Assembly (NCBI GenBank): GCA_944392655.1
Contig: CALXXL010000002.1
Location: forward strand, 124,001-188,000
Length of the DNA stretch: 64,000 nt
Direction: 5' to 3'
Origin: an uncultured Victivallaceae bacterium
GTDB taxonomy: Bacteria > Verrucomicrobiota > Lentisphaeria > Victivallales > Victivallaceae
Below, in pieces: positions 40,371-60,980 of this stretch. Each line of letters opens with the position of its first letter. Position 1 is the stretch's first letter. The position numbers were made by a program, and so were the translations under genes. The notes beneath the pieces are model-generated. The model saw nothing but the letters and a program-made list of their open reading frames with translations, did no database searches and was not told where the DNA came from.

Positions 40371-40411
40371 TAAAGAAAAGGCCGCGTTCCCGATCTGCCG
40401 GAACGCGGCCT
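40371..40411 (-). terminator. Terminator of the envelope operon
   Basis: On the minus strand AGGCCGCGTTCC pairs with GGAACGCGGCCT around a short loop and is followed by TTTCTTT. It ends the operon that starts at 45416. Confidence 0.85.
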
Positions 40412-40430
40412 GAATTATTACATTAATCTA

Positions 40431-41954
40431 TTATTTACCTTCGTGCGGCATACGGTCATGCAGAGCCTTGCCGGCTTCTGAGCGGACGTGAGCCCAGAGT
40501 TGACGGCGGACCGGATCTTTTTCGGTCATAAAGTTGACGGTTGCTTTCTGGCGGACGTTTTTGCCGACTCTGCGGAACTGAGCTGCGGTATTATCCTGAG
40601 CGCCGCCGATGGTGCGGATAGCGCGGCCGAGCTCTTTGCAGCGTTCTTCAAGTTCCTCTTCATCGCCGTTCTCGTCATTAGCGAGAGCCACTATTTCCGC
40701 GCTGAGCACTTCGCAATCTGCCGGGGTTTTGATCAGGTGAAGGACATCGGCATAAAACTTCTCCATTTCGTCGAAGTCGGCGGAGAAGAGTCTGGTTATA
40801 TCCTGATTAGCTTCGCCTGCGTTGGCGGTCAGGAAGTCGCGTTCATTTTTGCCCCATTCGCGGAAGTGTTCAATACGTTCGCGTATGCGGCGGACAAACT
40901 TATCCATTGCATCGATTCTGGTAGCGACCTCTTCGCGTAATTCATATGCTTCGCTGCGGTAGAATATTTTTTCAATTGCCTCGGTGGTGCCGCATGTAGC
41001 TGGGAACCATTTACCGTCGTTTTCTTTTTCGGATATGCTCTGCCACTGTTCTTTATCGAGGAACTGCAATATCGCCTCTTTCGGCATAATCAGAGCTTCC
41101 GGTTGAGCGGGGACCTCCATTCCCTCCCAGTAGTTGACCGTAGGATCCGCGCCCATTGGATAGATAAAAGCGCCGAAAGCGGTGTCGTGCTTCTGATGCG
41201 GATACTCCCCGGCATAGAGGAAACGCAGATAGGTATTGTTCTTATCGGCGCGGGCGGGATAGAAAGTGCCGCCGTAACCGGATACCCAGTTGCTCCAGGT
41301 TTTACCGTCATAGATAGCCAGACTGGTAGCCACCTGCATGGGGATATCTCTGAACGGCATAATTTTCCAATCCTCCTGAGTTCCGTTTTCGGAATTCATT
41401 GCGCCGATCTCTTTGCGGTAAGCCACCTGGAAATCAGCGGCGAAGGGTATTTTCCAGTCAACGGGCAGCCACTCCTGATCGTTCAGCTGAGCGGTAACAT
41501 GCTTCCATATTCCGGGGCAGTCCAGCAGATAATAACCGACCTTGCGTTCAGCTCCGGTAATGGTCACCACACCGTCGGCCAGTTTAACTTCGGCCTCCGG
41601 ATTATCCCATGCGATCATCTCCACGCGGTTGCCGTTTTCGGAAAACAGCATAAAGGTATAGTTATCTGCGGGGATATAATACTCTCTCCCCGGTTCGGTA
41701 AAAACGACGGCGCTTTCGCCGATAAAATCCGGAGTCATAACAGCGTTGACTTCGCCGACATTGATAGTCACCACATTGCCATCGGGAACGATCAACGCCA
41801 AAGCGTTGGCATAAGCGCACTCTCCGGCGATAATTCCTTCGGACTCAAATGCGGTTTCCGGAGTACCTCCGGTAATAACCGGCGGTTCAATTGCGGCCGA
41901 CAGAGCCGTGCCGGTCAAAATTCCGATACCGAGCAAAAACTTCTTCATTTTCAT
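40431..41954 (-). CDS. Unrecognised secreted protein of the envelope operon
   Basis: I do not recognise the family. 507 residues with a signal peptide (MKMKKFLLGIGILTGTALSAA). The first two thirds look beta-rich, with many aromatic residues and no membrane segments. About 340-480 is strongly charged and helical (VATRIDAMDKFVRRIRERIEH and later), probably a coiled coil. There is no lipobox and no outer-membrane C-terminal signature, so the likely place is the periplasm or outside. It is the last gene of a four-gene unit with an MBOAT acyltransferase and its SGNH partner, 42 bp after the latter, and directly before the terminator. A role in handling or being modified by the acylation system is plausible but unproven. 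Confidence 0.6.
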   Translation of the reverse strand: MKMKKFLLGIGILTGTALSAAIEPPVITGGTPETAFESEGIIAGECAYANALALIVPDGNVVTINVGEVNAVMTPDFIGESAVVFTEPGREYYIPADNYTFMLFSENGNRVEMIAWDNPEAEVKLADGVVTITGAERKVGYYLLDCPGIWKHVTAQLNDQEWLPVDWKIPFAADFQVAYRKEIGAMNSENGTQEDWKIMPFRDIPMQVATSLAIYDGKTWSNWVSGYGGTFYPARADKNNTYLRFLYAGEYPHQKHDTAFGAFIYPMGADPTVNYWEGMEVPAQPEALIMPKEAILQFLDKEQWQSISEKENDGKWFPATCGTTEAIEKIFYRSEAYELREEVATRIDAMDKFVRRIRERIEHFREWGKNERDFLTANAGEANQDITRLFSADFDEMEKFYADVLHLIKTPADCEVLSAEIVALANDENGDEEELEERCKELGRAIRTIGGAQDNTAAQFRRVGKNVRQKATVNFMTEKDPVRRQLWAHVRSEAGKALHDRMPHEGK

Positions 41955-41996
41955 AGTACTACCTGCTCCAGTTAAAAAATTTATATTACAACAGTG

Positions 41997-43118
41997 TTAT
42001 TCCTCATCGATAATCTGTTCAGCCATAATCTCATATCCGGGGTCGAGCGGATGGCTGGCGTCGGCATAGCATTCCGACGGCAATTCCTCCATAACGATAT
42101 ATTCCGCGTCGAGCTCGTCGAGATCGTCCATAATATAGTCCATCATATCCTCATAATCGCTCAGCGAATCGTCGTCAAGCAGATGGGTATTGAATGCGCC
42201 GAGCAGAATAACCACCTCGTTGCCGCGTTCTTTAAGGATTTTCCAGGTATTGATGAACGCCTCCCACTGGCGTGACTGATATGGCATAACCCAATTGTAT
42301 GATACCTTGAAGGGGCGTGGTTTATTCCACGGAGTATCGCGGTTGATATGCTCCGTTTCAATGGCGTTCACTTTACGTTCCACGGCGGCCCATGGCATTC
42401 TGTCGGGATTGTCCAGCATCCACTCGGGATACGTCTGATTGCTGAACCACACGCTGCGGAGGTGATTAGCGAGGCTGAAGAATGGGATATTGCGCTCCAT
42501 GGTATTGGCGATTCTCTTTTTCAGCGGCTCGTTATAGCAATAGAGAGTGGAGTCGAACTGCGGAGCCAGTCTTGGATGCATAACGGAGATGGTCTCGAAC
42601 TCGCCTGACTCATCTTTCTGCGGCATAGCGGAGAGGTCGAATTTCGGGTCATTCATCCACAATGCGTTGAAATAGAGATATACTTTTTTATCTTTTATTG
42701 CGCCGCCGAAGTCGCGGACAAGATTTTCGAGAGCGACGGGGTGAAGTCCGTCAATTCCCAGATTTGCCGCGATATTCTCCTCTTTCAGGCGGTTGTAATG
42801 AGCCGGCAGAGTATGTTCATTATCGGTATACATACCCCAGATCACCGAATCTCCGATAAATACCACCGGATAGTTCTGACATGCGTAGTCGCACCACTGC
42901 TGATAGCTCCAGTAGTCGTCGCGCAGATTGTAGCTGAGGCGGAAATTGTCGCCGAAGTCCCATTTTTCCCACGCCCGGTAAATGGCCGGCATAATCCAGA
43001 ATACGACAATCAGGGTAAGCGGCAGAACCACCGCCAGTTCTTTGGGTGAAAGTCGCAGATAGTTTCCGCCGAAAGGTATCGCTTTTATACTGCGCTGTTT
43101 TCTCTTTTTACTGTCCAC
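41997..43118 (-). CDS. SGNH-type membrane protein, AlgJ/AlgX/DltD-like partner of the MBOAT
   Basis: 373 residues. One N-terminal transmembrane helix about 29-48, then an extracytoplasmic domain. FIGDSVIWG supplies the block-I Gly-Asp-Ser with Ser91, and DASHPLDPGY near the end supplies Asp353 and His356, completing a Ser-Asp-His set typical of SGNH/GDSL hydrolases. In alginate, D-alanine and related systems, a periplasmic SGNH-fold protein works with a membrane-bound O-acyltransferase to put acyl groups on a polymer. The gene lies 8 bases downstream of the MBOAT gene. The polymer is unknown; overall sequence does not clearly match AlgJ or DltD. Confidence 0.7.
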   Translation of the reverse strand: MDSKKRKQRSIKAIPFGGNYLRLSPKELAVVLPLTLIVVFWIMPAIYRAWEKWDFGDNFRLSYNLRDDYWSYQQWCDYACQNYPVVFIGDSVIWGMYTDNEHTLPAHYNRLKEENIAANLGIDGLHPVALENLVRDFGGAIKDKKVYLYFNALWMNDPKFDLSAMPQKDESGEFETISVMHPRLAPQFDSTLYCYNEPLKKRIANTMERNIPFFSLANHLRSVWFSNQTYPEWMLDNPDRMPWAAVERKVNAIETEHINRDTPWNKPRPFKVSYNWVMPYQSRQWEAFINTWKILKERGNEVVILLGAFNTHLLDDDSLSDYEDMMDYIMDDLDELDAEYIVMEELPSECYADASHPLDPGYEIMAEQIIDEE

Positions 43119-43126
43119 GATTCACC

Positions 43127-44572
43127 TCAAAAGTCAAAGTAAAGGAATTTCTGGTTAGCGTCGGCCGGAACGATCAGGATAAGGGCGACTACAATAGCGA
43201 AGATAATGTACCGTAACGGCGCCCACGCCAACACCTTGTTAAATCTGGAATCGAATACCAGCTGATAAATCCATACCGCCGCCGCCATTCCGAGCATCAG
43301 CCATGGGATACCGGCGCTGACAGTGCCGGCGGCTCCGGAAAATACTACCTTGAGCAGACCGACCGCCTGTTCAAAGGTCTGCGCCCGGAAGAATACCCAT
43401 CCCACCGCGACCAGGTTGAATACCACCAACTGCTTCAGGAGTTTCGGCAATTTCACATACCACTCTCTCTTTTCAAAGCCGCGCCATATCACGGCCAGAA
43501 TGCCGTGCCATGCGCCCCAGATAATGAAAGTCCATGCCGATCCATGCCAGAATCCTGAGACCAGCATGGTAAGGAATAAATTCCACCATATCCGGTAGCG
43601 CACCACCCGGCTTCCTCCGAGCGGGATATAGACATAATCGCGGAACCATGAAGAGAGGCTGATATGCCATCTGCGCCAGAAGTCGCTGAAATCGACCGCC
43701 ACATAAGGGTTGTTGAAATTCAGCGTCAAATGTATTCCCATAATTTTAGCGATCCCCCGTGCCATATCGGTATACCCGGCGAAGTCGCCGTAAAGCTGCC
43801 ATGCGTAGGCGTAAGTGGCGAGAACAACGGCGAGCGCACCGTAACTGCCTGGTTCGGCGTTATAAACCTGATTAACGAATACAGCCAGTGTATCCGCCAG
43901 CACCACCTTTTTGAACATCCCGCTGATGAACAGGCACACGCCGTCGCTGAAATCGACCGGTCTGAACGGCATTTTATGCCGGAGTTGTTTAATCAGCAAC
44001 CCCGAACGGTCGATTGGTCCGGAAAGCAGAGCGGGGAAGAAGGCGAGATAAGATGCGTAGTGGATAAAATTCCGTTCCACGCGCTGATCGTGCCGGTAAA
44101 CGTCGATAGTATAAGAGAGCGACTTGAAGGTAAAGAAACTGATCCCGGCCGGGAGCAGAATCTGTGCGGGCAAAGCGTAGTCGATATTTAGCGCGTTAAA
44201 AATATTCTGTGCGCTCTCGGCGATGGTTGGAACGTGAACCTGCCAGTGGATATAGTCGCACAGTGCCTGTAAATTTACGGTAATAAAGTCGGCATATTTG
44301 AATAGACTCAGGAGCATCACTCCATTGATAATGCTCAATGTAACCAGAGTTTTCCTTACGCCGTTGCTGCTGTAAGCCGCCAGTCCGCGTCCGATAAAGT
44401 AGTCAACTATAGTAATATAGATAATGAATACGAGGAACGCCGGACTCATATATCCATAAAAAAAGTAACTTGCCGCCAGCAGCCATAAAGACTTCAGTCC
44501 CGGCCTCAGCAGAGCCATTCCAGCCATTACAATGGCAAAGAATATAACGAACTCCCAGGTTTGAAAGAGCAT
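43127..44572 (-). CDS. MBOAT-family O-acyltransferase (AlgI/DltB type)
   Basis: 481-residue polytopic membrane protein with about ten to twelve hydrophobic segments. It has the AlgI-type core: FKSLSYTIDVYRHD, FFPALLSGPIDR, YVAVDFSDFWRRWHISLSSW, RDYVYIPLGG, and WHGSAWTFIIWGAWHG with the probable catalytic His343. Relatives pass acetyl or D-alanyl groups across the membrane to exopolysaccharide, teichoic acid or peptidoglycan. Its partner SGNH gene follows after 8 bases, and a formylglycine-generating-enzyme-like gene precedes it by 16 bases. The substrate cannot be read from the sequence. No polysaccharide synthase genes are nearby. Confidence 0.9.
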   Translation of the reverse strand: MLFQTWEFVIFFAIVMAGMALLRPGLKSLWLLAASYFFYGYMSPAFLVFIIYITIVDYFIGRGLAAYSSNGVRKTLVTLSIINGVMLLSLFKYADFITVNLQALCDYIHWQVHVPTIAESAQNIFNALNIDYALPAQILLPAGISFFTFKSLSYTIDVYRHDQRVERNFIHYASYLAFFPALLSGPIDRSGLLIKQLRHKMPFRPVDFSDGVCLFISGMFKKVVLADTLAVFVNQVYNAEPGSYGALAVVLATYAYAWQLYGDFAGYTDMARGIAKIMGIHLTLNFNNPYVAVDFSDFWRRWHISLSSWFRDYVYIPLGGSRVVRYRIWWNLFLTMLVSGFWHGSAWTFIIWGAWHGILAVIWRGFEKREWYVKLPKLLKQLVVFNLVAVGWVFFRAQTFEQAVGLLKVVFSGAAGTVSAGIPWLMLGMAAAVWIYQLVFDSRFNKVLAWAPLRYIIFAIVVALILIVPADANQKFLYFDF

Positions 44573-44588
44573 AATCTATTCCTGAATA

Positions 44589-45416
44589 CTATTCGGTTTT
44601 ACTGTCTGCCGCCGGGCGCACGCAACGGAATCCGTATACGTCATACCCCTGACAGATATCGGCGGTTACGGGGTTATCTGCTTCGCGGATGGAGCTGCCG
44701 ATTTTCCGTGGCCGGTCGGCCCATGATCCGCCGCGCAACACTCTTTTGTCGCCGGTTTCAGGTCCGGTGGGGTCAACGGCGGCGCTTTCAGCATAATAGG
44801 TATTTTTGTAAAAGTCATTGCACCATTCGGCAACGTTGCCATAGAGGTCGTAAATGCCGAAAGCATTTGGAGTCTTGGTAGCCACGGTATGAGTGGACTC
44901 CTCGGAATTATTGCGGAACCAGGCGTAATTTTCCAGTTCTTTTTCATCATCGCCATAATAGAACCGGGTATCAGTTCCGGCCTTGGTGGCGTACTCCCAT
45001 TCTGCTTCGGTGGGAAGGCGGTATCCGTTGGCGGAGAAGTCTGCCTCATCGGTTTCGAGGTTGTAAACCGGGGTCAAACCCTCCTCTTCGGAACGTTTAT
45101 TGCAGTATGCGGCGGCATCGATCCAGCGGGTGCGTTCAACCGGAAGATTTTCGCCGCGGAATTTCGATGGATTATACTCCATCAGCCGGACATATTCCTC
45201 CTGTGTAACTTCGGTAACGTCCATATAGAATGGTGAAACAGTAACCTCGTGAACGGCAGATGCGTCGGACTTTCCTTTTGCATCGCCCATATTAAAGCTG
45301 CCGCCGGGGAGTTTAACCATCTCCACTCCGCCCTTGGTAACTATCTTCTCCGGAGTCTCCGCCATAACCATCATGGAAGAGAGCATTGCAGCAGTAATAA
45401 AAAGCCCCAGTTTCAT
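44589..45416 (-). CDS. Secreted formylglycine-generating-enzyme-like (SUMF1) domain protein
   Basis: 275 residues with a signal peptide (LGLFITAAMLSSMMVMA). The rest is an FGE-sulfatase fold: VKLPGGSFNMGD, PFYMDVTEVTQEEYVR, RLPTEAEWEYATKAG, DLYGNVAEWCND, VLRGGSW and GFRCV are all family landmarks. True formylglycine generators carry two active cysteines after the RGGSW turn; the stretch here (ADRPRKIGSSIREADN) has none, so oxidase activity is unlikely and a binding role is more probable. No sulfatase is in the window. It is the first gene of the envelope operon, with a candidate promoter at 45474-45501 and AAAGGAG before the ATG. Confidence 0.85.
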   Translation of the reverse strand: MKLGLFITAAMLSSMMVMAETPEKIVTKGGVEMVKLPGGSFNMGDAKGKSDASAVHEVTVSPFYMDVTEVTQEEYVRLMEYNPSKFRGENLPVERTRWIDAAAYCNKRSEEEGLTPVYNLETDEADFSANGYRLPTEAEWEYATKAGTDTRFYYGDDEKELENYAWFRNNSEESTHTVATKTPNAFGIYDLYGNVAEWCNDFYKNTYYAESAAVDPTGPETGDKRVLRGGSWADRPRKIGSSIREADNPVTADICQGYDVYGFRCVRPAADSKTE

Positions 45417-45473: not shown

Positions 45474-45501
45474 AGGATAGCCTCTAAAGTGGAAAAGTCA
45501 A
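45474..45501 (-). promoter_or_regulatory. Candidate promoter of the envelope operon
   Basis: On the minus strand TTGACT (45496-45501), 16 bp, TATCCT (45474-45479), about 58 bp before the start at 45416. Confidence 0.5.
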
Positions 45502-52013: not shown

Positions 52014-55000
52014 ATGTCATTTCAAGCGAACGTAAACGCTGAAAACTCTCCGGTAACCGGAGAGGTCGTGGAAAACGGTACTCAGATCATCGAATCCGGA
52101 GGGTGGACTCAGGATGCGGTAGTCGGTACTGGCGGCAACCAGACTATTTATGCTGGTGGCAAAGTAGTTAACACCACGGTAAATGCCGGTGGTGTTGTAA
52201 TGGGCATGGGTGGTGGTGCTGTTGTTGAAGGCGGCAGTATTTCCGGAGCGAATGCGACCATCCAGATCAGTGGCGAAGGCTCGGAAATTACCGGAACCAC
52301 AATTGCCGGAAGTGAATTTGCCAAGGTGGAAGTATGGACTGGAGCGAAAGCCTCTGATATATTGGTATCAGCCGGAGCGCCGATTGCCACCGGAACCGGC
52401 AAAAAAGGTGCATTTTTAATTGTCACCGGAGCAGGAGCAGAAGCCAGCGGCATTACGATTACCGACTTTGGTTCAGCCTCGGTATATGACGGGGCAAAGA
52501 TTATGGATTCTGTAGTTGAAGCCGGCGGCATACTTGCGATGAGCTATCGTAAGCTGAATGACGGTACCAGTGCGGGTTATGCAGAAAACATCACGGTTAA
52601 GGAAGATGGTATTTTCTGGGTTGGCAAACTTGGTTCAGTTGCGAACAACATCACTTTTGAAGCTGGTTCATTCATTGGTGGTTTTGGTCTTGATTCCCAG
52701 GGTACAGCATTCACCAACAGCAAGGTTATCGGATATGACGGCAGTGAAACAACGCTGACGAACTGGAATGGTGGCGATTACACGGTAGCGAACGGTCTTA
52801 TTCTTCTGATGAGCAGCAGAATTGGTGATGACACAGCTGATTACGTTCTTGACCTGAGCAAGGTTATCCTTGACAAGGGCGGTGCGATCCAGAAGAGTGT
52901 TACCGACAACACCTTCAGTTCTGCCGATACCGTTGAAGGACTGCGTGTAATTGATCCTGAAACCGGTGACGTTCTTGATGCCTCCATTTCCGGCGGCAAA
53001 GCGACCAACTGGGTAGTAAACAAGGGACAGGAATACACTTTTGGAGCGAACGATACCGGTTTGATTGTCTATGAAGGCGGAGTTATCAACGGCAATTACA
53101 GCACGGCTGAAAATCAGCTTACCGGTCGTTATGTCTATGATGATGGTTCTGTTGTTGCCTTCAGCTGTGCTGATGGTGTTGCAGAAAACCTGATTCTTGA
53201 TGGCAAGACCCTGAGCATTGCTGCCGGTGGCAAATCGATCAATGCGGTTCTGACCAATGGTGGTGTAATCAACGGTATGGGTGGCGGAGCTACGGTTGAA
53301 GACGGCAGTGTTTCCGGCGAAAACTCCACCATTCAGATTACCGGAGCTGATTCAGTAATTTCCGGCACTGTTCTCAGCGGAACAGAATTTGCTAAGATTG
53401 AAGTATGGGATGGTGCGAAGGCCTATGATATTCTGGTATCAGCCGGAGCGCCGATTGCGACCGGTATGGGCAAAAAAGGAGCGTTCCTGATCATTACCGG
53501 AGCAGGAGCAGAAGCCAGTGGCATTACAGTTACCGACTTTGGTTCAGCAGCGGTTTATAATGGTGCGAAGATTTCTGATTCCGTAGTTGAAGCCGGTGGT
53601 GTTCTGACGATGAGCTATCGCAAGCTGAATGATGGTGCGAGTGCCGGTTCTGCGGAAAACATCACGGTAAAAGAAGACGGACTTTTCTGGGTTGGCACGC
53701 TTGGTTCAACTGCGAACAATGTAACATTTGAAGCCGGTTCATTCATTGGCGGCTTTGGTCTTGGCGAACAGGGAACCACTTTCACCAACAGTAAAGTAAT
53801 TGGCTATGACGGCAGTGAAACCGAATTGGCGAACTGGGATGGAGGCGACTACAAGGTAGCGAACGGTCTTATTCTTCTGATGAGCAGCAGAATTGCTGAT
53901 GACGGTGCCGATTATGTGCTTGACCTGAGCAAGGTTATCCTTGACAAGGGTGGTGCGATCCAGAAGAGTATTACCGACAACACCTTCACCTATCAGGATA
54001 CCATTGAAGGTCTGCGCGTAGTAGATCCTGAAACCGGTGCAATCCTTGATGCATCTATTGTTGACGGTGTTGCGACCAACTGGGTAGTGAACAAGGGCCA
54101 GAGCTACCGTGTTGACGGTGGCTGGGGTGCAGCCGGCAGTGCTGATGGCTTGATTGTTTACGAAGGTGGTTCAATCACTGGTATGTTTGTTGGCCGTCCC
54201 GGACCGATTGCCGGAACCCCCGGTACGGTTATCACCAATGGCCGTTATGTAAAGAATGACGGAACAATCGTCAACTTCTCCTGCGGCAACGGTTATGCGG
54301 AAAACATGATTGTTGAAGATGGTACTTTCACCTTGAATGGCTATACCGGAGCTTATACGGAAGCCACATTTGGTTCTGGTGCGGTAGTCAAGAACACCAC
54401 AATGATCAACGGACTGTATGTACAGGGCAACATGGCCTACTCTGATGGTCTCACTGTTTCCGGCAACACCGCGATTCAGACCTACAGCTATGCAGAAATC
54501 ACCAATGGTGTAAATCTTGATGAAAGTGAAGACAGCATTTACCGCAACTTCTCCTTGAAGGACGGTGTTGCCTCCGGATTCATTCTTGAAAATGGTGGTT
54601 TTCTGGTACTTGCCGGAGAACTTGTTTCTACAGATGGCACACTGCCGACGATTCCGGCCGGTTCTGCGACCAACATTATTGTACGCGGCACCTTGGCGGA
54701 AAAATACTGGACAGGAGGAGCGGCCGGTCAGCAGGGCAACAACAACCGTACGGACCGTAAATCCTACCTGCAGATGCAGTCTGGTGCGGTCATAGACAAT
54801 GTCAGCATCCAGGATGGTGGTATTCTTACGAGCGTAGGCGCCAACTGGACAGCGAACAATGTTACGATTGATGTTGGTGGTGCGACAGACATTACCATTG
54901 GCGCTGACACAGTTCTGAATGCCACAGTAATGACGGAAGACGGCTCCTATACACTGAGTTGGGATGCGGGTTCCGGCGTTCTGGCCGGTTACACTCTTGG

Positions 55001-58000
55001 CGGCGATGGAAACATCAAAGTCACGTTGGCCGATGACATTGATGTTTATGATTTCAATGACATGACGATCATCAATTCCACCTATTCTCTTGGCATTCGC
55101 AAGACCTACAACAATCTTACGGTTGACAACTCCACCGTTACGAGCTATGACAACAACACAGTCAATGGCATGACGGTTGGCGGCAGTGCAACATTCCTGC
55201 AGTTCACCAAGGGTACCTTCAATGATATAGCTCTGAACGGCGGTAAATTTGAAGCAGCCGGAACGGCAGAAATCAACAATGTAGTAATTGATGGTACACT
55301 CTACAACACGCCTGTTGGCGATACCAGTGATAACATCAATGGCCACTTCTCCACTCAGTTGGTAGCCTATGCTGATGGAGTAGTAATCAACGGCATGGTA
55401 TTGCAGAATGGTGGTTCTGCCTTCATCTATGCTGGTGCGACAGCCTCTGGTGCTACAGTTAATTCCGGTGGTGTACTTTATCTGACCAACTGGAACAAGG
55501 ACACCAACACCACAGCGAACATTCTTGGTGATCTGGTTGTTCAGACTGGTGGTACGCTGTGGCTTGGTTCTACTGAAAACAATATTGAAAAGATTCAGAC
55601 CTATGCTGGAGCCAACATTGTTGGTATAGCCAGCGGCACAGTAATTGATGATATAGTTCTGCGCGGCGCCAATATTGAAATTGACGACAAGCTGACCATC
55701 AACAACGCTCTCATGGGCAACAACCAGACCCAGACCGGTGGTTTGGTCAAAACTCTGACCAACAACTATGGTGTATGGACGATGGAAGGCGGCGTTCTGG
55801 AAAATTACATCCACAACAATGGCAATAACGTTGACTGCGGTATCTACATCAAGGGTGGTACGGTACAGAATCTTGATCTGACCAAATACAATGGTACCAG
55901 CTATATTCTTGGTGGTTCGATTGAAGGCGGCACGATGGCTGGCGGTACGCTCTCTGACGTAGATGCTACTGATCCGGAAGCGATCGTAACCGGCAATGGC
56001 TCCATCTCCAACTTCACAGTTACCGGAACTGGTATTCTGTCGATTGCGTCAGAAAACACTGTTCTCAGCAACATCACGCTGAAGGGCGGTACGATTGACG
56101 CCAAGGTAGACATCAGCGGCATCAACATTTACGGTGGTAAGATTCTTGGCAGCAATGCGGTAAATGATTCTACCATTTATGAAGCCACTGACATGTGGAC
56201 CTCGAAGACCTACAATAATCTTACTATTGACGGTGCGGCGCAGAACATTGGCGGCGGCAACATTTTCAACAATCTGACGGTTAACGATGCTACGTTGATG
56301 TCCTACTCTGCCGGCAACACCATCAATGGTATGACCATCACCGGTGGAAAGACCTTTGCCCAGGCTCTCTCGGACAACGTCTTCAGTGATGTTGAAATGT
56401 ACGGTGGTAAGTTTGAAGTTGCAGGAACGACAGTAGTTAACGGTATCATGATTGATGGTACAGCGTTCAACACTGCTCCTGGCGACACGAGTGACAACAT
56501 TGACGGTCACGTTTCCACTCAGTTGGTAGCCTATGCTGCTGGAGCGGTTGTCAATGACATGGTTCTGCGCAATGGTGGTTCTGCGTTCATCTACAATGGA
56601 GCGACGGCGAACAACGTAACGGTTGAAAAGGGCGGTGTGCTCTACATGACGGACTGGAATCAGAATGACGGCGTCAATGGTGTAGCCAATGGTGTGACTG
56701 TTCAGGATGGTGGGTACCTCTACTATCGCAGTGGCAGCACGGTTAATGATCTGACGATCAACAAGGGTGCTACGCTTGATGCAAGAATCAGCTGGACTGA
56801 CTCCTTTGCGGGAACTTATGTTGATGGCGACACCGTTATTGACTACACTCTCAATGGAGAAGAAGCCAACACCTTTGTAGTAACCCAGGGAACCACCTTC
56901 CTTGGCAACTACACTGCGGCCGGCGGTTCCGAAGGCGGAGTTGCGACCTTTGACAAGCTCTATGTTGTTGAAGGCGGTTCGATGCTTGGCTGGCATCTTG
57001 GCAACACAGTCATCACTGAAGGTGCCTACATCGCCAATGACGGCACCCGCATTGAAATGAACTGGGGCAGCCTCAACGAAACTGGTGGTAAGCACATTCA
57101 GGGTGGTTACTTCTACAAAGGTTCCGCGGTACTTGGTGGTGGTTCTGCCAATCTTGACGAAGCGACAGGTGAAGTCACCTTTACGATCAATACGTTGGAC
57201 AACGTTATTTTCGACAACAGTCTGTTTGTTGCCGGCAATATAACCAAGTCCACCAACCTGGTATTCCGCAATGGAGCGAGCCTCCAGACCTACAGCAATG
57301 CCGAAATGAGCGGTATCAATGAAGATGAAGCGGAAGACAGTGTCTATCGCAACTTCTCGCTGAAGGATGGAGTAGCTTCCGGTTTCATTATTGACAACGG
57401 TGGTTTCCTGCAGATGGTGCCTGAAGGCTACAACTGGCAGGGTAACACTCCGTCTCCTGCGGCGTCAGCGTTTGACATTTACGTCCGTGGCAGCCGCACT
57501 GAAGTAGCGGGCAACTACAATGCTGACATGATGAACATGTTCAATGGTGGTTCTCACATTCAGCTGAGCAGTGGAACCTATGTCAAGAATCTGCGTGTTG
57601 GCACTGGAGCAGGCGTCCGTGTAATGGCTGGCAATGATGAAGTTGCAGCCGGTGTAATTGAAGACATGGTTCAGGAAGCCGGTGCGATCACCATCTTCGA
57701 ACAGATCAACAGAGACAGCAAGATCAACGCTACGGTTGAATTGGGTGAAGGTGAAACTATTGCCTACACGATTGCTGATGGTGTTGTATCCAACTACTAT
57801 CAGGACAATGCCAAGTCCAGACTTACCGGTGCGGCAAATCTGACGTTTGAAAACCTCACCGTCAAGGGTGGTACAGTTTCCGCGTTGGAAAACACTGTTA
57901 TTACTGGCACCACCGCTGTAAGCGGCTCAGGCACAGTCTTCTCAGCTGCTACGGTAAAAGAAATCAGCGGCAACCTGTCTATAACTGATGGAGCGTCAGT

Positions 58001-60980
58001 AACCTTCGGTTCAGCTAATGAAGCAGCGGGTGCGAATCTGGAATCTCTGGTAGTAGATAATGCCTCCTTCAGCACCACCGACATCAACTACGGTTGTGAT
58101 GTCACGATCTCCAACGGCTCCAAGGTAACCTGGACCGGTGGCAGCATTGCTGACGGCAAGACCATGACGGTTGACGGAGCTGGTACAGAAGTTACCATGA
58201 GCTGGCATCACTCCAACTGGGGAAGCAGCAACAACACGCTGAAGATCTCCAATGGCGGTTATGTCATTTCCAATGGCAGCAACGGCTTTGGTAAAGTAAT
58301 CATCGAAAACGGTAACCTCTATCACAATGGCACCAGCTACTACAAAGACATCACGCTGCAGAACGGTTGGATTCAGATGAATGCGACCTATGCCGGCAAT
58401 GTTACCATTGGCGGAGGTACAGATGAAGGCACCTATTATCAGGTTATCGGCACTGCGACAGGTACCACAACGCTTAACGGAATAGGTTCTGTTTACGTTG
58501 GCAGTGCTGCCTGGGGAGCCGCGGCGTTTGAAGGCAAGATTGTTGTCAGCACCAAGGACAAGGAAGTTGGTAACGTCTGCCTGCGCAATGGTTCGATCAA
58601 CGGCCTGGAAATGAACGGTGGTACCTTCTGGTATCGTGGCAGCTATCGTGTAAACGATGCGAATGTAACGAGCACCACAGTTTCGATTGCCGGCGATATT
58701 ATGTTCAGCAATGCGAAGATTGTTTCCGGCAATATGGAACAGACCAATACTGAAACGATGGATCTCACCGGAGTAAGCAGTCTGGTAATTGGTAACAACA
58801 CTGATGTCAACATCAGCATCAACGCGAGTGATGTTAATGTATCTGTTGGCGGTGGCATCAACATTGCCGAAGGCAAGACCATCACCGTTGGTGCGATCAC
58901 CGGTTATGACTTCCGCAATTCTCAGAGTTACGAAGTATATGGTGCGCTTACTGGTGACATGTCTCAGTGGAACTTTACCAACACAGACAAGCCGATCTCG
59001 ATTTCCAGCATCACTGTTGGCGGCGAAGGTGTATATCACCTCGGCAATGTAGATTATCTGAAGATTCGTCCGGGTGTTGCGTTCACTTGTGGTGGATACA
59101 CTGCTACCATTGATGAGCTTGGCGTTGACATCATCACAGAAGCAAGCTATGATACAACCATGACCATCCGTGTTGATGTTGATGAAAACAACAATGCGGT
59201 ACTGACAGTTTACCGTTCCAGCTCTGCGGACAAAGTGGATGCTACCTGGTATGAAGGTTGGAGCTACGACTTCGGTGAACCTCCGGTCAAGAACATTCCG
59301 GTTCGTGCATCTGACGTTGAAACGTTTGCCTCTGTTGCCGGTGTCCTTGACATCCAGAGTGCGAATGAATTCAGTGCTCAGGGGCGGTTTGTTTATTCTG
59401 AACCGAACGCCACTGGTGGTGTATCAGCGTTGGCCTACATGGATAATGCATGCGATGGACTCACGGTAGTGATGACATCCGGCAGCCGTCAGAACTCCTG
59501 GGCGGAAGTAAACGGAACTCAGAATCTCACTCTGATTGCCGGTGGAATTGACTCTGAGGGCAATACTGTTACTACAGCTGCTGCACTCAATAACAATTCT
59601 TACATGTACATCTATGGCGGCGCGACCACAGAAAAGGTATTCGGCGGCGGCGCGAACAACTTTGAAGTCAAGGGCAGCACCAATGTAGCTATCGAAGGCG
59701 GCTCGCACAAGATGGTAGTTGGTGGTGGCCATGGCGGTACGGTTGGCGCGGTCAATCTGGATATTGTTGGCGGTGCTGAAGTTACCAGTCTGGTAGCTGG
59801 AGCTATGGGTAATGTTACCGGTGACGTAAACATCACGCTTGATGCGGTCAGCGGCGTAGCCAACATCTACGGTGGTGCGATCAATTCAGCGGTTCCGGCG
59901 ATTGGCAATGTTGCGGTTGATGGCGACTATGCGGTCAACAACGTAGTCATGAGCATCACCAACAGCAATCTCCAGGGCTTGATCTTCGGTGGCGGCGTAG
60001 CTGAAGCTGATGGCAAGACCAGTACTGCAGCCAGCACCACAGTTACGTTCAGCGGCTCAACCCATACCGGCAACCCGGATCTGGCTGAAGGCGGACGTTA
60101 CAACAGTGCGTGGATTGTAGGTGGTGGATTGGCCAAGAATACCGGTATTGCCAATGTCACTGGTACAGCGGTAATCAACGTTACTGCGGATGCCAATGCG
60201 ACCTATATTCTTGGTGGTGGCGTATCCTACTTCAGTGGAGCGACGGCTTCTGTTGGTTCAACCTTCATAACTGTTGATGATGGTGCGACAGTAAGTGCGA
60301 ACATCTACGGTGGCGGTTACTCACTGGCCGGTGGAGCTTCCACGGTCAATGGTGATGCCGTAATCACGATTGATGCGACAGCTGCCGACAAGATTGTATC
60401 CGTACAGGGTAACATCTATGCTGGCGGTTGGGGCAACAACTCCACAGTTACCGGCGATGCGTATGTTGTCTTCAAGGGCAGCAGCGACAGCCTGGCCTTC
60501 ACCGGTGAAGTCAATGGTAACGGCAATGTGGAAGCGGTTGTTGGTAACAGCTATCTGGTATTCGAAGACTTCTCCGGCGTATTCAGCGCCAGTGTTGTAA
60601 ACTTCGATTATGTCAAACTGAGCAGTGATACAGCGATGAGCTTTGATCAGGCTGCTTCGGTCAATGGTTTCGTCTTTGACGTGGCCGACCGTGATGCGGC
60701 TCTGGTAGACGAAGCCGTTGCCGATGCCACCAACCTCTCCTTCAACGGGGCAGGCGAACTGGTAATCAACAATGCGGATCTGTTCACGGACGGCACCAGC
60801 ATGGCGTTGCTCTCTGGAGCTGACGAACTGCTTACGGCTGATACCGTAATCAATCTGTTTGACCAGAATAATGAACTGATCGGTACGTTCAACTATGGCG
60901 AAACCTTCGCCAGTGCTGAACTTGGATTCACACTGGAATCCAAGGATGGTAAAGTTTACCTCAACGTTACCGCTCTGTAA
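52014..60980 (+). CDS. Giant AIDA-like beta-helix repeat protein (2988 residues)
   Basis: Almost entirely short beta strands with Gly, Asn and Thr turns, in patterns like TVNAGGVV and VEAGGILTM, as in AIDA-type adhesin passengers forming long beta-helices. Larger duplications are visible. A block at residues about 48-343 recurs at 405-700 (offset 357 residues, 1071 bp, high DNA identity). A TYNNLT/STQLVAY block recurs 388 residues on. A YRNFSLKDGVASGF block recurs 935 residues on. Residues about 2480-2850 change to IYGGG/VVGGG/GDAYV repeats. The N-terminus (MSFQANVNAENS) has no classical signal peptide, and the C-terminus (KVYLNVTAL) shows no autotransporter barrel. A surface or secreted role is inferred from composition. 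Confidence 0.8.
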   Translation: MSFQANVNAENSPVTGEVVENGTQIIESGGWTQDAVVGTGGNQTIYAGGKVVNTTVNAGGVVMGMGGGAVVEGGSISGANATIQISGEGSEITGTTIAGSEFAKVEVWTGAKASDILVSAGAPIATGTGKKGAFLIVTGAGAEASGITITDFGSASVYDGAKIMDSVVEAGGILAMSYRKLNDGTSAGYAENITVKEDGIFWVGKLGSVANNITFEAGSFIGGFGLDSQGTAFTNSKVIGYDGSETTLTNWNGGDYTVANGLILLMSSRIGDDTADYVLDLSKVILDKGGAIQKSVTDNTFSSADTVEGLRVIDPETGDVLDASISGGKATNWVVNKGQEYTFGANDTGLIVYEGGVINGNYSTAENQLTGRYVYDDGSVVAFSCADGVAENLILDGKTLSIAAGGKSINAVLTNGGVINGMGGGATVEDGSVSGENSTIQITGADSVISGTVLSGTEFAKIEVWDGAKAYDILVSAGAPIATGMGKKGAFLIITGAGAEASGITVTDFGSAAVYNGAKISDSVVEAGGVLTMSYRKLNDGASAGSAENITVKEDGLFWVGTLGSTANNVTFEAGSFIGGFGLGEQGTTFTNSKVIGYDGSETELANWDGGDYKVANGLILLMSSRIADDGADYVLDLSKVILDKGGAIQKSITDNTFTYQDTIEGLRVVDPETGAILDASIVDGVATNWVVNKGQSYRVDGGWGAAGSADGLIVYEGGSITGMFVGRPGPIAGTPGTVITNGRYVKNDGTIVNFSCGNGYAENMIVEDGTFTLNGYTGAYTEATFGSGAVVKNTTMINGLYVQGNMAYSDGLTVSGNTAIQTYSYAEITNGVNLDESEDSIYRNFSLKDGVASGFILENGGFLVLAGELVSTDGTLPTIPAGSATNIIVRGTLAEKYWTGGAAGQQGNNNRTDRKSYLQMQSGAVIDNVSIQDGGILTSVGANWTANNVTIDVGGATDITIGADTVLNATVMTEDGSYTLSWDAGSGVLAGYTLGGDGNIKVTLADDIDVYDFNDMTIINSTYSLGIRKTYNNLTVDNSTVTSYDNNTVNGMTVGGSATFLQFTKGTFNDIALNGGKFEAAGTAEINNVVIDGTLYNTPVGDTSDNINGHFSTQLVAYADGVVINGMVLQNGGSAFIYAGATASGATVNSGGVLYLTNWNKDTNTTANILGDLVVQTGGTLWLGSTENNIEKIQTYAGANIVGIASGTVIDDIVLRGANIEIDDKLTINNALMGNNQTQTGGLVKTLTNNYGVWTMEGGVLENYIHNNGNNVDCGIYIKGGTVQNLDLTKYNGTSYILGGSIEGGTMAGGTLSDVDATDPEAIVTGNGSISNFTVTGTGILSIASENTVLSNITLKGGTIDAKVDISGINIYGGKILGSNAVNDSTIYEATDMWTSKTYNNLTIDGAAQNIGGGNIFNNLTVNDATLMSYSAGNTINGMTITGGKTFAQALSDNVFSDVEMYGGKFEVAGTTVVNGIMIDGTAFNTAPGDTSDNIDGHVSTQLVAYAAGAVVNDMVLRNGGSAFIYNGATANNVTVEKGGVLYMTDWNQNDGVNGVANGVTVQDGGYLYYRSGSTVNDLTINKGATLDARISWTDSFAGTYVDGDTVIDYTLNGEEANTFVVTQGTTFLGNYTAAGGSEGGVATFDKLYVVEGGSMLGWHLGNTVITEGAYIANDGTRIEMNWGSLNETGGKHIQGGYFYKGSAVLGGGSANLDEATGEVTFTINTLDNVIFDNSLFVAGNITKSTNLVFRNGASLQTYSNAEMSGINEDEAEDSVYRNFSLKDGVASGFIIDNGGFLQMVPEGYNWQGNTPSPAASAFDIYVRGSRTEVAGNYNADMMNMFNGGSHIQLSSGTYVKNLRVGTGAGVRVMAGNDEVAAGVIEDMVQEAGAITIFEQINRDSKINATVELGEGETIAYTIADGVVSNYYQDNAKSRLTGAANLTFENLTVKGGTVSALENTVITGTTAVSGSGTVFSAATVKEISGNLSITDGASVTFGSANEAAGANLESLVVDNASFSTTDINYGCDVTISNGSKVTWTGGSIADGKTMTVDGAGTEVTMSWHHSNWGSSNNTLKISNGGYVISNGSNGFGKVIIENGNLYHNGTSYYKDITLQNGWIQMNATYAGNVTIGGGTDEGTYYQVIGTATGTTTLNGIGSVYVGSAAWGAAAFEGKIVVSTKDKEVGNVCLRNGSINGLEMNGGTFWYRGSYRVNDANVTSTTVSIAGDIMFSNAKIVSGNMEQTNTETMDLTGVSSLVIGNNTDVNISINASDVNVSVGGGINIAEGKTITVGAITGYDFRNSQSYEVYGALTGDMSQWNFTNTDKPISISSITVGGEGVYHLGNVDYLKIRPGVAFTCGGYTATIDELGVDIITEASYDTTMTIRVDVDENNNAVLTVYRSSSADKVDATWYEGWSYDFGEPPVKNIPVRASDVETFASVAGVLDIQSANEFSAQGRFVYSEPNATGGVSALAYMDNACDGLTVVMTSGSRQNSWAEVNGTQNLTLIAGGIDSEGNTVTTAAALNNNSYMYIYGGATTEKVFGGGANNFEVKGSTNVAIEGGSHKMVVGGGHGGTVGAVNLDIVGGAEVTSLVAGAMGNVTGDVNITLDAVSGVANIYGGAINSAVPAIGNVAVDGDYAVNNVVMSITNSNLQGLIFGGGVAEADGKTSTAASTTVTFSGSTHTGNPDLAEGGRYNSAWIVGGGLAKNTGIANVTGTAVINVTADANATYILGGGVSYFSGATASVGSTFITVDDGATVSANIYGGGYSLAGGASTVNGDAVITIDATAADKIVSVQGNIYAGGWGNNSTVTGDAYVVFKGSSDSLAFTGEVNGNGNVEAVVGNSYLVFEDFSGVFSASVVNFDYVKLSSDTAMSFDQAASVNGFVFDVADRDAALVDEAVADATNLSFNGAGELVINNADLFTDGTSMALLSGADELLTADTVINLFDQNNELIGTFNYGETFASAELGFTLESKDGKVYLNVTAL
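52155..53043 (+). repeat. In-gene tandem duplication, copy 1
   Basis: First copy of an approximately 0.9 kb block repeated in frame 1071 bp downstream. Shared landmarks are the SYRKLNDG, FTNSKVIGYDGSET and LILLMSSRI codons. Confidence 0.85.
53226..54114 (+). repeat. In-gene tandem duplication, copy 2
   Basis: Second copy of the block at 52155-53043. Most differences from copy 1 look like single-base changes, so the duplication seems fairly recent, and recombination between copies could change protein length. Confidence 0.85.

Follow-up and report, generated by a model that had tools for sequence, protein, structure and literature searches.

A conserved four-gene set in Victivallales and related bacteria joins an MBOAT-SGNH pair to an FGE-fold protein and an unnamed secreted family, and is a probable glycan O-acetylation module

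The stretch of Victivallaceae DNA analysed here (64,000 nucleotides, hereafter the window) harbors a minus-strand operon encoding a protein with the fold of formylglycine-generating enzymes (FGE), an MBOAT, an SGNH protein and a secreted 507-aa protein of no named family. Given that the same set was found in 16 further genomes, the grouping of these genes is not a product of chance. It is a conserved, undescribed combination using known transfer chemistry, and we consider it probable that the module is a self-contained O-acetylation system for an extracytoplasmic glycan. Its FGE-fold and 507-aa parts belong to no acetylation system that we could find described: literature searches returned no described system uniting MBOAT, SGNH and FGE, and those on MBOAT in Lentisphaerae returned unrelated work only. 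The features of the operon are, in window coordinates:

45474..45501, minus strand: weak candidate promoter, TTGACT-16-TATCCT, 9/12 consensus matches.
44589..45416, minus strand: FGE-fold gene, 275 aa, signal peptide, C-type-lectin-like, secreted, catalytic Cys pair absent.
43127..44572, minus strand: MBOAT gene, 481 aa, His343, C-terminal FLYFDF with Tyr478.
43127..43147, minus strand: last six codons of the MBOAT gene (FLYFDF, the FXYXXF acyl-Tyr shuttle hexapeptide) plus the stop codon, identified by sequence, with the chemistry as described in PMC12148441.
41997..43118, minus strand: SGNH gene, 373 aa, GTG start, N-terminal TM helix 24-49, Ser91 (GDSV), Asp353 and His356 (DASH).
40431..41954, minus strand: 507-aa gene, secreted product with two domains (N-terminal beta, C-terminal helical bundle) ending in HEGK, family unnamed.
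40379..40411, minus strand: intrinsic terminator hairpin, -25.4 kcal/mol, z -5.34.

ORF coordinates bear out the arrangement given in the original prediction, four minus-strand genes separated by exactly 16, 8 and 42 bp, and a purine-rich Shine-Dalgarno-like stretch is found 5′ of each of them. Folding revealed no notable RNA structure in the 42-bp gap that precedes the 507-aa gene. Of the one promoter and one terminator also predicted, it is the terminator that stands (z -5.3): folding compared with shuffled sequences supports a G+C-rich 12-bp hairpin 3′ of the operon (40379-40411) followed by a U-run, UUUUCUUU, which the consensus terminator scan skipped because its loop is longer than 8 nt. 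The promoter (45501-45474) is weak as evidence, since it matches the consensus at 9/12 positions and the scan yields many such sites. The assembly containing the window comprises 2.34 Mb, and no MBOAT other than that of the module was found in it.

Whole-genome searches covered the window's own phylum. Among 137 genomes of the order, the 507-aa protein was found in 7 and the SGNH protein in 9, and the relatives' loci that were read share one set of neighbours (FGE-fold, MBOAT, SGNH and 507-aa genes). A profile of the SGNH protein added contigs of Victivallales from ruminant stomachs and horse faeces, matched further contigs in additional classes of the phylum, and also added two MAGs, which bear the labels Planctomycetota and Paludibacter. 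The full four-gene set is present in 17 of 25 loci, all from distinct genomes, of Lentisphaerota and of further classes within its GTDB phylum (the window, L054, L055, L056, L057, L061, L074, L076, L077, L080, L081, L083, L085, L086, L105, L106 and L108). Three others, in which the contig ends at or near the MBOAT (L073, L078 and L082), carry the MBOAT, SGNH and 507-aa genes; L110 starts within the SGNH gene and has two 507-aa genes along with an FGE-fold gene, and the L065 sequence stops after the SGNH gene. Altogether, the 507-aa family adjoins other module genes in 21/25 loci. It has no gene near L066, L067 or L109, of which L066 and L109 retain FGE-MBOAT-SGNH and L067 apparently has no 507-aa gene anywhere in its genome, so this protein may not be strictly required. 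Gene order varies as well: in L076, L106 and L108 the 507-aa gene lies ahead of the FGE gene.

Across 388 evenly sampled genomes of the phylum, a strong SGNH match occurs in 15 and the 507-aa family in 13, all 13 of which also have the SGNH protein (Fisher 1.8e-22, a p-value that overstates independence since the sampled genomes are related). Pairwise distances of the four module proteins correlate across 16 loci, with Mantel r of 0.66-0.91 and 0/999 permutations as high. Thus the co-occurrence across taxa that the original prediction had anticipated is seen in 17 four-gene loci, one MBOAT clade, correlated divergence and 13/13 co-presence; the opposite outcome, first and last genes scattered without linkage to the pair, was not observed, although some of these genomes also have 507-aa paralogs at other sites. 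The module contigs labelled Paludibacter and Planctomycetota (L076 and L077) have MBOATs that group with Victivallales, which points either to transfer or to mislabelled bins; both labels may be misassigned because these MBOATs nest among Victivallales sequences.

The MBOAT matches its Pfam family at 5e-23 and presents the His343 residue, within WHG, that is invariant in 8/8 aligned sequences. All 23 module MBOATs terminate exactly in F(I/L)YxxF, which reads FLYFDF in the window protein. The FXYXXF motif is found at this extreme C-terminal position in presumed PatA and not in DltB; in the Dlt system it sits on DltX (PMC12148441). The motif Tyr of PatA receives acetyl from acetyl-CoA and can hand it on to PatB (PMC12148441). 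Since other MBOATs of the order carry FXYXXF too, the motif marks the chemistry rather than the module. What sets the module proteins apart is their phylogeny: in a tree of 54 MBOATs, a branch with support of 91/94 sets off all 23, which form a single group in 92% of bootstrap trees. They are separate from 22 further MBOATs found in the order, from DltB, from plasmid-borne references and from two presumed PatA references, which come from N. gonorrhoeae and P. mirabilis DNA that carried no annotation. Placement inside a known acetylation clade, the outcome set against the original prediction, was not seen in this tree, where the module proteins group neither with presumed PatA nor with DltB and no experimentally verified AlgI is among the sequences.

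No Pfam family matches the SGNH protein above cut-off, and its assignment comes from the GDSV and DASH blocks, found in nearly all relatives, along with the SGNH fold of its AlphaFold2 model (pLDDT 85.5), for which the best PDB folds are DltD structures (E 1.6e-6). The Ser91, Asp353 and His356 triad is intact and the predicted N-terminal TM helix (24-49) suggests a membrane-anchored protein. The pair therefore presents the hallmarks of MBOAT-SGNH envelope acyltransferases, i.e., the catalytic His, the Tyr hexapeptide and an adjacent anchored SGNH protein with its triad.

The FGE-fold protein matches Pfam FGE-sulfatase at 6.8e-48, and a sequence search gives T. denticola TvpA, FGE and PorK/GldK as its best PDB relatives. 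The original prediction of a secreted FGE-like protein holds for fold and secretion signal, with the refinement that it cannot be a working FGE, as the catalytic cysteines are lost. Comparison with a solved FGE and 23 relatives shows that the second catalytic Cys is missing, replaced by Arg or another residue, in 24/24 FGE-fold sequences, and that the first position, Ile in the window protein, is Cys in 9/24 and has lost it in 15/24. A search of the window's genome for the sulfatase family PF00884 returned no match, while the same search was positive in 10/14 control genomes. Hence, despite the strong Pfam match, it is scarcely credible that this is a functional FGE activating secreted sulfatases and functionally unrelated to the MBOAT pair; a sulfatase maturase is ruled out by the loss of the second Cys in all 24 sequences and the lack of a Pfam sulfatase in the genome. 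PorK is a non-enzymatic FGE fold that serves as a docking hub (PMC12421860). The module protein resembles PorK/GldK in that its FGE fold lacks both catalytic cysteines, but its gene lies outside any type IX secretion locus and it scores 117 bits against the GldK model (cut-off 350). We infer that the fold has been repurposed here as a subunit for binding or docking, with no enzymatic role. A second FGE-domain protein of 866 aa, fused to an apparent Ser/Thr protein kinase N-terminal part, is encoded on contig 1 of the same genome (L145:2414-5014).

The 507-aa product, which the original prediction had not recognised, still has no named family after profile search and structure prediction: neither Pfam nor NCBIfam matches it above cut-off, there is no PDB sequence match and no match among plasmids, and its AlphaFold2 model (pLDDT 80.6; beta domain at ~51-268, helical bundle at ~291-498) retrieved no solved PDB fold at E<1e-3 in a structure search. 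A weak resemblance to GH36/GH31 alpha-galactosidase/alpha-glucosidase folds (E 6.9e-3, TM 0.14) is not relied on, and a PDB profile search that returned coiled-coil chemoreceptors only (E 0.05) was dismissed as helical-bundle noise. Scanning genome contigs for peptide patterns of this protein returned nothing, probably because the family diverges too fast; alignment of the SGNH protein succeeded instead. Residues W150, A173, Y265, C321, R360, R447 and G450 are conserved across 32 sequences, as is the ending (E/D)G(K/R), which is the very C-terminus (-COOH) in 27/31 full-length relatives, at identities to the window protein down to 17%; four divergent members extend a few residues beyond it. 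The family is fused to CBM_4_9, above gathering score, in L108 and L110 and to other N-terminal stretches in L055, L056 and L059; no CBM was recognised in the window protein. Paralogs outside the module occur in four genomes (G060, G073, G005 and G219), and several adjoin GH20, GH42 or CBM (CBM9) proteins. Because of these surroundings and of the CBM_4_9 fusions, a glycan-facing protein appears to be the simplest reading.

We propose that the MBOAT takes acetyl from cytoplasmic acetyl-CoA via His343 and would place it on Tyr478 of its own periplasmic C-terminal FLYFDF. From this tail the acetyl could pass to the DltD-like, membrane-anchored SGNH protein at Ser91, and that protein would transfer it to glycan hydroxyls. 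The FGE-fold protein would be a putative docking or binding subunit, and the 507-aa protein a putative glycan-binding partner for presenting or selecting the polymer. Sequence and structural models establish the gene set, its conservation, the motifs, the triad and the predicted fold. The transfer reaction itself is drawn by analogy with PatA/PatB and DltB-DltX-DltD, and we likewise infer acetyl as the acyl group, a glycan as the target and the roles of the FGE-fold and 507-aa proteins. The most direct hint of an acetyl cargo is an acetyl-CoA synthetase-like gene inside the L105 operon, between MBOAT and SGNH, with 692 bits to the acetate-CoA ligase model, 37 bits under its strict cut-off (729), and 1e-144 to a PDB acetyl-CoA synthetase; this arrangement is seen in one locus only. 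The original prediction had noted no polysaccharide synthesis genes close by, and the analysis recognised none for polymer synthesis next to the module. Poly_export (Wza-type) and Wzy_C (Wzy-type) genes do lie ~1.3 kb apart on another contig of the window's genome and might supply an exported polysaccharide as a possible substrate.

The original prediction envisaged a self-contained module modifying either a surface polymer or the secreted protein itself; the module stands, and between the two targets the evidence favours a glycan. Were the 507-aa (or FGE-fold) protein the acyl acceptor, its conserved C-terminal (E/D)G(K/R) would be recognised or modified, in line with the persistence of that ending in distant relatives and with the fact that the 507-aa gene, and not polymer genes, accompanies the MBOAT-SGNH pair. 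Yet paralogs with the same ending are located apart from any MBOAT, in glycan-degradation surroundings, the motif is not terminal in the four divergent members and the CBM fusions point towards sugar, which makes a protein acceptor unlikely. More speculatively, the 507-aa family could be a specific acyl acceptor or else a new carbohydrate-active or carbohydrate-presenting fold, and the module an undescribed acylation machine in which this family and the FGE fold replace polymer-specific partners; we regard this as a tentative idea with a modest chance of being right.

It is improbable that the module is a PatA/PatB-type peptidoglycan O-acetyltransferase with accessory proteins: the MBOAT-SGNH architecture and the shuttle motif are shared, but the module MBOATs stand apart from the two presumed PatA references, the SGNH model is closest to DltD and no O-acetylpeptidoglycan esterase was recognised beside the module. 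A role in carbohydrate uptake, with the module remodelling the acylation of foreign glycans instead of modifying a polymer of the cell itself, would fit the glycosyl-hydrolase-like neighbours of some rumen relatives, the 507-aa paralogs among GH20/GH42 genes and the secreted HDAC-family proteins next to L066 and L105. However, acyl transfer by an MBOAT with such a shuttle tail is directed outward, and hydrolysis of foreign esters would need no MBOAT; with no recognised glycosyl hydrolase flanking most module loci, such a role is very improbable.

O-acetylation of an extracytoplasmic glycan, our preferred reading, places the module beside three known systems. It is similar to Gram-negative PatA/PatB in the Tyr shuttle fused to the MBOAT C-terminus, the separate SGNH transferase and the presumed acetyl-CoA donor, and differs in the separate MBOAT clade, the DltD-like SGNH fold and the constant FGE-fold and 507-aa partners, which are absent from PatAB as described. 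DltB-DltX-DltD, which D-alanylates teichoic acid, offers the nearest fold for the SGNH protein and 164 bits between the MBOAT and the DltB model, a score under the cut-off (375); unlike in Dlt, the shuttle is fused to the MBOAT and no DltA, DltC or DltX was recognised in the module loci. AlgI-AlgJ-AlgF-AlgX also combines an MBOAT, a membrane SGNH protein and extra periplasmic proteins to acetylate alginate, AlgF being a non-enzymatic mediator (PMC10641220), but the module has neither a second SGNH protein nor an alginate synthesis cluster alongside, and its accessory proteins belong to other families.

In five loci (L055, L057, L066, L077 and L105), the region upstream of the FGE gene encodes an ECF sigma factor and a FecR-like anti-sigma factor with a single TM helix, homologous from locus to locus; in four of the five it also encodes a homologous ~400-aa protein of no known family. 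HDAC-family proteins with signal-like N-termini adjoin the module in two distant genomes (L105:856-1860 and L066:181-1161, 54% identical) and are possibly an extracellular deacetylase beside an acetylation system. The window operon adjoins no ECF sigma, anti-sigma, ~400-aa or HDAC-family gene; the window's genome returned no homolog of the HDAC-family protein, nor of the ~400-aa protein in a search run without a positive control. Elsewhere in the window (52014-60980, plus strand), a 2988-aa ORF, which has a LacI-type regulator and a GFO/IDH/MocA oxidoreductase as neighbours, shows only a sub-threshold match to the AIDA autotransporter stalk (20.3 vs 27 bits) and is possibly a giant adhesin.

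What emerges is a compact cassette, probably for acetylation, in a phylum that has received little study. Its fixed partner set makes two families testable, a non-enzymatic FGE fold and the unnamed 507-aa family, and the shuttle motif allows the mechanism to be probed at a single residue, Tyr478. In five lineages, the module's own ECF sigma/anti-sigma pair provides a handle on the timing of surface glycan acetylation.
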